Shown one piece after another: positions 45,174 to 46,902 of a DNA stretch of 64,000 nucleotides. Each line of letters begins with the position of its first letter. Position 1 is the first letter of the stretch. The notes under the pieces were generated by a model that ran no database searches, was not told where the DNA came from, and worked only from the letters and a program-made list of their open reading frames with translations. Both the position numbers and the translations under genes were made by a program. The stretch is from Oricola cellulosilytica (lineage in GTDB: Bacteria; Pseudomonadota; Alphaproteobacteria; Rhizobiales; Rhizobiaceae): contig NZ_JAINFK010000003.1 in NCBI RefSeq assembly GCF_019966575.1, forward strand, positions 260,001 to 324,000, given 5' to 3'.

Positions 45174-45643
45174 GGCGGTCGTCCTCTCTGGCGGCCCGCC
45201 ATGCGTCACGGCGGCCGGATCAGCAGGTGTCGGCCCGAGTTCTTACATGCTTCCGGCCGTTACACCCGCCGGGTTCATGCGCTGCCCCGTGCGGGGCAAC
45301 TGAAAGCTCCAGAATACACCCGCCGCGCCCACCCAACAAGCTGATCCCACCGTCGACGTCCGGCGCTCGCGAAAGCCGGCCAATTGCATGTTTTGCCACC
45401 TGCGCGCCCTCCCCGGGCTTGTCCAGAGGCGATCGCCAAGCGGCTCGGTCATTCAACACGAAAAAACCGATCCAGTCGGCTGCTGCACGTTCAGACGCCA
45501 GCCTGACGTGGATAAGTTTTTCTCCCCTTTCCGCACAACGTGTTGTTTTCACACGGTATTGGCATTTTTTCGCGCGATTTTTATCCACACCCCCGAAACC
45601 TCCCGGATAATCCGTCCCGTGTTTGTTGCCGAAGGAGGCGGGA
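45174..45643. other. 470-base divergent gap with DnaA-box-like sites
   Basis: No frame here looks coding on either strand. It holds one perfect DnaA box, TTATCCACA at 45581-45589, and a one-mismatch copy in inverse orientation, CGTGGATAA at 45507-45515, with T-rich runs between them. The last bases give a strong AAGGAGG ribosome site for the gene at 45644. Confidence 0.5.
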
Positions 45644-46645
45644 ATGGGTTTCGACTGGGAAGGGTCGGTGGAACATTACGGCGATGCGCTCGACGCGCTT
45701 GCCGCGCGGCTCGTCACCATGGCCGGAATCCTGTGGGGCCGGCCGGTCGAAATGCTGCCGCGCCGGCTCTATCTGGAGATCCTCGCGATCCTTCGCCCCG
45801 CCGAATTCGCGCTGCGCCGCCTGATCGTCATGGCCGCCTGGAAGGTGGTCCCGGAGATCGGCCTGCCGCCTGCGACAGAAGAAGGCGAGGAGCCGCCGCG
45901 CACCACTCTCCCCCCTTGTGGGGGAGAAAGCGATTTCGACGGCTTGGCCGAGCAAACGGCGAAGGCCAAACGTCAGAAATCGCAAGAGAGGGGGTTTGCC
46001 CCCTCATTCGGCCCTTCGGGCCACCTTCTCCCACGAGGGGAGAAGGAAGGCGCCAGCCGGCGACGAGCAACGGCTAGCGGCTTGCCGCTTACGACAGAAA
46101 CCACCGAGGAGCTTAAGGGCGGGACTTCAGGGGCCCATCAGCAAGGGCAAAGCCCGCAGCTTAAGGATGGGACACCAGGGGCCCGCCAGCGAGCGACAGC
46201 GAAGCTTAAGGGCGGGACAAGGAAGGGCGGGACAAAGACCCCCCGCGTCCCCTATTTCCCGATCTTCGATCCGTGGAAGCGCTACGGCCCGCCATTTCTG
46301 ACCGAGGAGCAGATCGCGGCGCTGAACGATCCGAACCGCGTGCCCCTGCCGCCCCGGCCGGTGCTCGACCCGGATGAGATGGTCCCCGCCAAAACCCTCT
46401 GCCGGCGGGTGCGCGCTTTTGCCAACGCGCTGCTCAACCTCGACCACCACATTCATCGCATGGCCCGCTGGCGGGCGCAGCGCGCCGCCCAGTCCAAACT
46501 GCCCTGGAAGGAGCGCACGCTGCGGCGGCTGTCGCCGATCCGGCCCGGGGTGCCGCCCGGCTACCGCGAGCGGCCGAAGACCCTTGTCGGCGAGACGCTG
46601 AAGGACTGCCACATCCTCGCCCTCGACGCCCTCAACAGTTCGTGA
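45644..46645 (+). CDS. Hypothetical protein carrying in-frame repeat insertions
   Basis: 333 residues from ATG 45644 after AAGGAGG. Two parts look like a normal conserved protein: the N-terminus (about 1-80, MGFDWEGSVEHYGDALDALA, LWGRPVEMLPRRLYLEIL) and the C-terminus (about 203-333, VPYFPIFDPWKRYGPPF, AFANALLNLDHHIHRMARWR). Between them about 120 residues come from DNA repeats: a palindromic element at 45908-46046 and tandem units at 46110-46240, all read through in frame. No named domain is visible. The terminal parts contain few hydrophobic stretches, so it is probably soluble. It precedes the metA riboswitch. Confidence 0.75.
   Translation: MGFDWEGSVEHYGDALDALAARLVTMAGILWGRPVEMLPRRLYLEILAILRPAEFALRRLIVMAAWKVVPEIGLPPATEEGEEPPRTTLPPCGGESDFDGLAEQTAKAKRQKSQERGFAPSFGPSGHLLPRGEKEGASRRRATASGLPLTTETTEELKGGTSGAHQQGQSPQLKDGTPGARQRATAKLKGGTRKGGTKTPRVPYFPIFDPWKRYGPPFLTEEQIAALNDPNRVPLPPRPVLDPDEMVPAKTLCRRVRAFANALLNLDHHIHRMARWRAQRAAQSKLPWKERTLRRLSPIRPGVPPGYRERPKTLVGETLKDCHILALDALNSS
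45908..46046. repeat. Palindromic repeat element inside a coding gene
   Basis: Five stem-loops in 139 bases: CTCCCCC/GGGGGAG at 45908-45926; GCGATTTCGACG with CGTC-A-GAAATCGC at 45930-45983, enclosing TTGGCC/GGCCAA; GAGGGGG/CCCCCTC at 45988-46005; GGCCC/GGGCC at 46010-46022; CCTTCTCCC/GGGAGAAGG at 46024-46046. The make-up (strings of C and G, a central conserved hairpin) is that of rhizobial intergenic palindromes, yet the stretch is translated without a stop. Confidence 0.85.
46110..46240 (+). repeat. In-frame tandem repeat of 48/45 bp
   Basis: Units start with AGCTTAAGG at 46110, 46158 and 46203. The first is 48, the second 45 bases, both multiples of three, and the third is partial. Each carries a GGGAC core, and the first two carry CAGGGGCCC. 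The protein shows LKGGT/LKDGT/LKGGT at the same spacing. Confidence 0.85.
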
Positions 46646-46764
46646 GGCTTCAGGGGCCCGCCAGCGACGAATGCAATTGAGGAGCTTAATGGCGGGACAA
46701 GGAATCCGCGCGCCTATCTCCCCCTTGCGGGGAGATGACGCCGGAGGCGACTGAGGGGGGAGGG
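46646..46764. repeat. Intergenic copies of the same repeat families
   Basis: Directly after the stop codon come CAGGGGCCCGCCAGCGA and GAGCTTAATGGCGGGACAAG, the two halves of the tandem unit found inside the gene. They are followed by ATCTCCCC/GGGGAGAT at 46716-46736 and a G-rich tail to about 46764, a typical rhizobial palindrome. This is the same repeat mixture as in the gene, here in its usual intergenic place. Confidence 0.75.
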
Positions 46765-46786
46765 AGAGCGACGGTCCGCCCGCACA

Positions 46787-46815
46787 TTGACGCCCGCGCG
46801 GCCCGCCACTACATT
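46787..46815 (+). promoter_or_regulatory. metA: Sigma-70 promoter of metA
   Basis: TTGACG at 46787-46792 and TACATT at 46810-46815, 17 bases apart. The expected start at about 46822 is the first base of the SAM-II aptamer, which supports both calls. Confidence 0.65.
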
Positions 46816-46819
46816 CGCG

Positions 46820-46875
46820 CCCTGTGGTGATTTGGCCGGCCGGCTTGCAGCCACTTGAAAAAACTCGCTAAAGGG
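46820..46875 (+). ncRNA. SAM-II riboswitch (metA leader)
   Basis: The aptamer that senses S-adenosylmethionine before metA in many alphaproteobacteria. Signs are GTGG (46824-46827) pairing with CCAC (46851-46854), the conserved TGATTTG directly after the 5' strand, TTGCAGCCAC, the A-rich spacer, and the pseudoknot strand GCTAAAGGG at 46867-46875. It lies 76 bases before the metA ATG with a terminator in between. Confidence 0.9.
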
Positions 46876-46902
46876 CCGAGACGACAAACGAGCGAATGTC
46901 CG

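Follow-up and report, generated by a model that had tools for sequence, protein, structure and literature searches.

We propose that short palindromic repeats, which lie mostly in the spacers of this genome, have repeatedly been inserted in frame at tolerant sites of proteins, where they survive and are putatively translated, and that several of them have piled up in the linker of a single gene in the window (the 64,000-nucleotide stretch of DNA analyzed here). Amplification of the family to which this gene belongs, together with exchange between its copies, would spread such linkers further. Given the copies found elsewhere in the genome and in unrelated genes, we regard this reading as quite probable.

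The palindromic stretch and the linker around it

The host gene (45644-46645, forward strand) is an open frame from the ATG at 45644 to the TGA at 46643-46645, and its 333-residue product belongs to an unnamed multi-copy family with two domains. Alignment delimits a conserved N-terminal domain of 80 residues (45644-45883) and a conserved basic C-terminal domain of 130 residues (46253-46642), separated by a variable, largely repeat-derived linker of about 123 residues (45884-46252). The preliminary description had reported a 139-base palindromic stretch with five stem-loops at 45908-46046 (forward strand, residues about 89-135), built like a rhizobial intergenic palindrome and lying within the gene without a stop codon, and all of this was borne out. 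The stretch has a predicted folding energy of -84.4 kcal/mol versus -53.3 on average for shuffled sequence (z -7.8; 0 of 200 shuffles equally low), and the five stem-loops are its minimum-energy structure; in the centroid structure the outer arms also pair mutually (45907-45918 with 46032-46043), these 12-nt candidate terminal inverted repeats standing at 83%. The stop-free gene frame says little by itself, because three of the five remaining frames are equally open (four of six in total, among them all three forward frames).

The first part of the stretch, 45908-46001 (forward strand), is 74-80% identical over 87-103 aligned bases to repeats of Mesorhizobium sp. 1M-11, Phyllobacterium sophorae and Phyllobacterium sp. 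628 (L038, L039 and L040), all three of which lie outside genes according to a home-made codon score. Its second part, 45999-46054 (forward strand), is 83% identical to a palindrome within this genome's own uvrD-type gene. What had been taken for one element is itself a composite of two repeats, and the insert of about 46 residues originally envisaged has to be replaced by a non-conserved one of about 123 residues (45884-46252) that consists of several different repeats. An Rfam search of the whole window returned three matches at gathering scores, namely a SAM riboswitch (46814-46891) and two tRNAs, and no match at 45908-46046, i.e., no known structured RNA there.

Most of the linker looks repeat-built, well beyond those 46 residues. 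Its first 300 nt fold with a z of -6.8, as against -0.4 and 1.5 for the domains of the same gene. Repeat matches in the genome place an array of a second repeat, Rep2 (read as ELKGGT..GARQ), at 46085-46245 on the forward strand, and a portion of the linker is a tandem array of a 48-base unit in 2.4 copies. Another copy of Rep2, recognized by repeat matches, lies directly 3' of the stop codon (46646-46710, forward strand) and is followed by a third palindrome (46711-46780, core at 46717-46735), which is recognized by its core pattern and by the repeat queries. When the whole window was searched at E<=1e-3 with eight repeat queries, four taken from its own sequence, all matches fell between 45907 and 46780.

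A known fold or family for the host gene was considered and rejected. The window protein had no match at E<=1 in Pfam, NCBIfam or PHROGs; the 43 family members gave no NCBIfam match and one Pfam match (E 0.098), which we take as chance; and a PDB profile search yielded nothing credible (best E 0.24). The structure predicted for the window protein on its own was of poor quality (mean pLDDT 45.5), with helices at residues 5-32, at 40-68 and from 210 on, and none at 69-209. A phage or plasmid origin was likewise rejected, since there was no match in the phage and plasmid collections searched and the 1 and 130 pattern stretches obtained from viral contigs were in no case confirmed.

Repeats elsewhere in the genome and in uvrB and uvrD-type genes

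Further copies of the stretch were to be expected in the genome if it were a dispersed repeat. They exist, three of them in genes, in partial form only: besides the query, six copies of 39-75 bases apiece were found in the 3.70 Mb genome at E<=0.001, two belonging to the linkers of the paralogues L065 and L066, a third to the uvrD-type gene and the remaining three lying outside genes, the in- and out-of-gene calls for repeats being made with the codon score, which was trained on the window. A genome scan for the hairpin core TCTCCC-N4-10-GGGAGA gave 23 sites, versus none for the reversed control pattern. Six of these sites lie within four genes (two in the window gene, one in the paralogue L067, where a different hairpin core is in frame, two in the uvrD-type gene and one in uvrB), and a seventh coincides with the start of a predicted protein's frame, where placement in a gene is doubtful. 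All three codon positions are used by the in-gene hairpin cores. Rep2 has 24 matches in the genome including itself, 18 of them outside genes (15 by codon score and three by their placement in the flank 3' of a family copy) and six in genes (the window gene, L065, L066, L069 and, twice, uvrB); the in-gene copies are all read in the LKGGT frame, as printed. Genes of this genome hold at least two types of in-frame repeat, the hairpin-core repeats and Rep2, and further types occur in relatives.

The same kind of insert is found in two unrelated conserved proteins, the genes of which are each the sole match in the genome at E<=1e-100. One of them, L161, scores above the NCBIfam cut-off for UvrB; the other, L075, is a UvrD/PcrA-type helicase, with pcrA as the best model (760 bits, below the cut-off of 911) and Pfam UvrD domains above their cut-offs. 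A uvrD search matched 40 of 41 genomes, and 30 loci were read. The stretch between WLRLLAQ and CVGDDD is 13 residues long in seven of the 30 loci and at most 25 residues long in 18, and reaches 68-105 residues in all six genomes of the genus, with 105 in the genome studied here. This uvrD insert folds with a z of -5.95 and has terminal arms of 13 nt at 92%, which are candidate inverted repeats. A uvrB search matched 39 of 41 genomes, and again 30 loci were read. In the UvrB of this genome (L161:392-3511), Rep2 occurs both near the N terminus and in the tail, where a palindrome (z -4.4) is found as well; the protein further has an 18-column insert a little ahead of GVTGSGKT, which 12 of 12 other aligned UvrB proteins lack.

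Inserts at the same places of UvrB and UvrD also occur in relatives. A third repeat, GPQGRPAVAPDGAPSRSEPRSGDSVSEN, is common to the UvrD of three genera (G005, G012 and G013) and the UvrB of one (G012; DNA local scores 57-82), with further UvrB candidates in G048 and G016 (scores 15-37). Four further genomes among the 30 (G002, G008, G016 and G022) have UvrB tails with peptides like SPLxGEMSxRTEGG, which, judged by eye from the peptides only, may be translations of similar palindromes.

Based on these findings, we envisage that palindromic repeats spread through the genome, chiefly into spacers, and that most insertions into genes are presumably lost. Those that strike flexible loops, linkers or tails, with the frame kept and no stop codon introduced, would be harmless enough to persist and to be translated. 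In the window gene, several repeats would have accumulated in the linker between the two conserved domains, and exchange among the amplified copies of the family may disseminate such linkers within it. That the repeats, frames and sites are so varied speaks more for tolerated insertion than for any one specific function.

The host family and competing readings

The window protein had been described as otherwise conserved and divided by the palindromic stretch, with orthologues lacking the latter as the proposed check. Related proteins without it do exist, linkers of only 11-31 residues being present in seven sampled copies of G033, G036, G026 and G004 (123 residues in the window copy). The picture of a single conserved gene with one insert had to be abandoned, however, as the gene is one of a multi-copy, lineage-amplified family, in which linker length ranges from 11 to 149 residues over 43 aligned copies. 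Since the linker of this family differs among most of the sampled copies, the site would be tolerant by nature. An exact empty site for 45908-46046 was not found; in L068, the copy with the most similar N domain, the contig ends immediately ahead of the element.

Relatives of the host protein are present in at least 13 of the 61 genomes searched, including all six of the genus. In G003, which is a single contig, a two-domain copy was found in 23 of 24 regions examined (L057, listed as a match but without a domain-search match, was left out of the 23), and all 23 are stop-free from domain to domain. The genome studied here has at least six two-domain copies (the window gene, L065, L066, L067, L069, which contains a run of N, and L070); this number is a lower bound, because the assembly breaks at family copies, the contig ends C1, C5, C8 and C12 all falling inside copies that are thereby fragments. 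Four copies with contig ends or a run of N (L068, L069, L071 and L072) were excluded from alignment, tree and dN/dS, and five that lack a clear start (L014, L018, L024, L029 and L030) from the alignment A1. L070, which is 38-40% identical to the other four own copies, represents a separate subfamily and is outside the own-copy figures.

In the tree of 43 copies, a sample in which those of G001, G002, G004 and G005 are only partly included, copies group by genome: 14 from G003 (support 1.000), nine from G003 (0.999) and the four own copies (1.000). Identity within a genome is 87-94% for the four own copies and averages 85% and 81% in the two G003 groups. One copy lies tail to tail with a heme A synthase gene in six of six genomes of the genus (the neighbor of L066 is COX15/CtaA heme A synthase), yet over the two domains the identity among the copies at this position is only 41-63%. 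Within our genome, L065 and L066 have one difference over 318 linker bases, as against 16 over 441 bases of the domain stretches compared (N domain 7 of 210, first part of the C domain 9 of 231; Fisher P 0.002). This points to exchange between the copies, stronger selection on the linker being the less likely cause. One flank of the G003 copy L047 is also present in four relatives, where no family copy adjoins it among the matches listed. Judged from these comparisons, the family shows what appears to be genome-specific amplification and exchange between copies, a pattern that could stem from recurrent amplification of a resident copy or, alternatively, from homogenization.

Possibly, although we consider it rather doubtful, the host family is an undescribed self-spreading chromosomal gene, with a copy at a locus shared by the genus (six sampled genomes), a dispersed set arising in each genome from or alongside it and homogenized by exchange, and a linker that would serve as a landing pad for palindromes and as a swap zone. 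The 5' module of the family, about 90 bases long, may be a shared end, for in G003 it also heads five near-identical elements of about 0.5 kb that have another, apparently non-coding body. These elements are L211-L215 (e.g., L211:1044-1565), L211 being 96-98% identical to the other four. Their body contains no obvious gene and has no Rfam match (one sub-threshold CRISPR-repeat match lies elsewhere in L212), its fold is not clearly better than that of shuffles (z -1.3), and weaker pieces of it occur in repeat regions of our own genome such as L074.

Mean dN/dS values of the N and C domains are 0.25/0.31 among the four own copies and 0.30/0.19 and 0.40/0.34 in two other paralogue groups and, by this measure, both domains evolve under constraint. 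Linkers fold strongly more often than domains do, as a z below -2 (16 shuffles, first 300 bases per segment) was obtained for nine of 42 linkers (one was too short) versus one of 43 N domains and two of 43 C domains (9/42 versus 3/86, Fisher P 0.002). The most extreme value, -9.2, belongs to a linker of G001 that contains another dispersed palindrome, read as VILGPDPRTHS..GMGPRVKPEDD, which, with the strands counted separately, gave 23-39 matches per genome in five genomes of the genus and two in G003. Many inserts are not strongly palindromic, since 33 of the 42 linkers have a z above -2, the Rep2 in the uvrB tail has a z of +0.8 and the linker region of L067 one of -0.6.

Alternatively, the linker repeats might be retained for a function, for instance because their RNA hairpins adjust translation or the stability of the mRNA, or because recombination at them reshuffles linkers. 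Of the 23 palindrome cores, seven fall no more than 1 kb from family copies, which with these flanks make up 0.6% of the genome, although three copies supply all seven, so that the sites are not independent; together with the nearly identical linkers of L065 and L066, this clustering would suit such a role. Yet the repeats differ between copies and between species and many linkers have no strong fold, and we think retention for function improbable. We see still less reason to regard the window copy as a decaying, untranslated member of the family, in which repeats landed in non-coding DNA that stays open by virtue of its GC-rich composition. The linkers are indeed hypervariable and composition alone leaves four of the six frames of the element open, but all 333 codons stay open across no fewer than three repeat units and both domains are intact, the own copies have the low dN/dS values given above, no G003 copy has a stop between the domains, and inserts of the same kind occur in uvrB and uvrD-type genes that have no second copy in the genome. 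Finally, chance palindromes in a low-complexity linker grown by slippage, without any insertion of repeats, would account for the 48-base tandem array but are contradicted by the recurrence of the same sequences elsewhere in the genome and outside genes in other genera, which makes this explanation very improbable.

Relation to known repeats and the window locus

Tolerated in-frame insertion into flexible protein regions, followed by putative translation, would make the repeats described here work like the Rickettsia palindromic elements (RPEs), a parallel that the preliminary description had drawn and that is strengthened by the separate uvrB and uvrD cases in this genome. The likeness is one of description: in both systems palindromic repeats with further copies in the genome, partial ones in our case, occupy spacers and also lie in frame within genes, including unrelated conserved ones. 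Protein-coding palindromes have reportedly been found in Wolbachia as well. RPEs are palindromic repeats of about 100-150 bases that are also found in frame in unrelated, often conserved genes, 19 reading frames being given (PMC2229807), and nearly half of the 44 RPEs of R. conorii lie in ORFs (PMC10969869). Unlike RPEs, our system comprises at least two types of in-frame repeat, a hairpin core that uses all three codon positions, and one gene family that acts as a hub.

By their description, the repeats also resemble the intergenic palindromes of rhizobia and Brucella (RIME, Bru-RS, AB and C), hairpin-rich spacer repeats of the same order, and the first part of the stretch has spacer homologues in other Hyphomicrobiales genera. 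Bru-RS is classed as intergenic (PMC2267715), with copies beside genes in Brucella (PMC10800456), and RIME and related rhizobial repeats are treated as intergenic elements (PMC2573895). The CIR repeats of Caulobacter and Brucella are likewise alphaproteobacterial intergenic hairpin repeats; they were reportedly absent from genes and have stops in all six frames (PMC2229807), being strictly intergenic (PMC10969869). Small repeats with open frames that are fused in frame to genes are known from the enterobacterial ERIC/RU and the Neisseria Correia elements, as summarized in PMC2759123 and PMC2229807. Those belong to other lineages and are described as MITE-like with terminal repeats, several of them with target-site duplications. 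The suggestion that in-gene insertions are little described in Hyphomicrobiales agrees with our literature search, in which no report of translated palindromes in this order was found; its coverage consisted mostly of journals other than subscription ones.

The spread of in-frame palindromes into conserved proteins is best documented for Rickettsia in the reviews consulted; here it would concern the rhizobial order. In several genera, inserts occupy the same loop or tail of core repair proteins, and the many natural pairs with and without an insert occur in organisms related to growable, engineerable ones, so that it is directly testable whether the inserts are neutral or change function. The host family, unnamed and amplified by lineage, poses a second question, distinct from this one, that merits attention.

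The window copy sits between a ybaK-like gene, which encodes a tRNA-editing-domain protein, and metA. In G001 these two genes are adjacent, 353 bases apart, with no copy between them, and the alignment of the ybaK-metA region is too distant to fix the ends of the insertion. The metA stretches of the other four genomes of the genus and of G012 were uninformative on the locus, as no ybaK-like gene was found in them. Family copies lie on the other side of metA in G001 and G003. The metA leader of G012 (L111) has, by eye, an apparently duplicated SAM riboswitch-like sequence with N between the copies, which may be an assembly fault.

Upstream of the window gene, an inverted pair, GTGGATAA (45508-45515) and TTATCCAC (45581-45588), was recognized by eye at 45508-45588 on the forward strand. 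Variants of it, also seen by eye, are GTTGATAA/TTATCAAC in L067, GTCGATAA/TTATCGAC in L069 and GTTGGACAA/TTATCCAAC in L053 of G003. The left arm appears to be missing in several copies, and the right arm could, we presume, belong to a promoter or a DnaA box. A CGCGCGCC-like sequence, often in a hairpin, was noticed by eye about 60-75 bases after the stop codon in many copies of both subfamilies and lies at 46705-46712 in the window.
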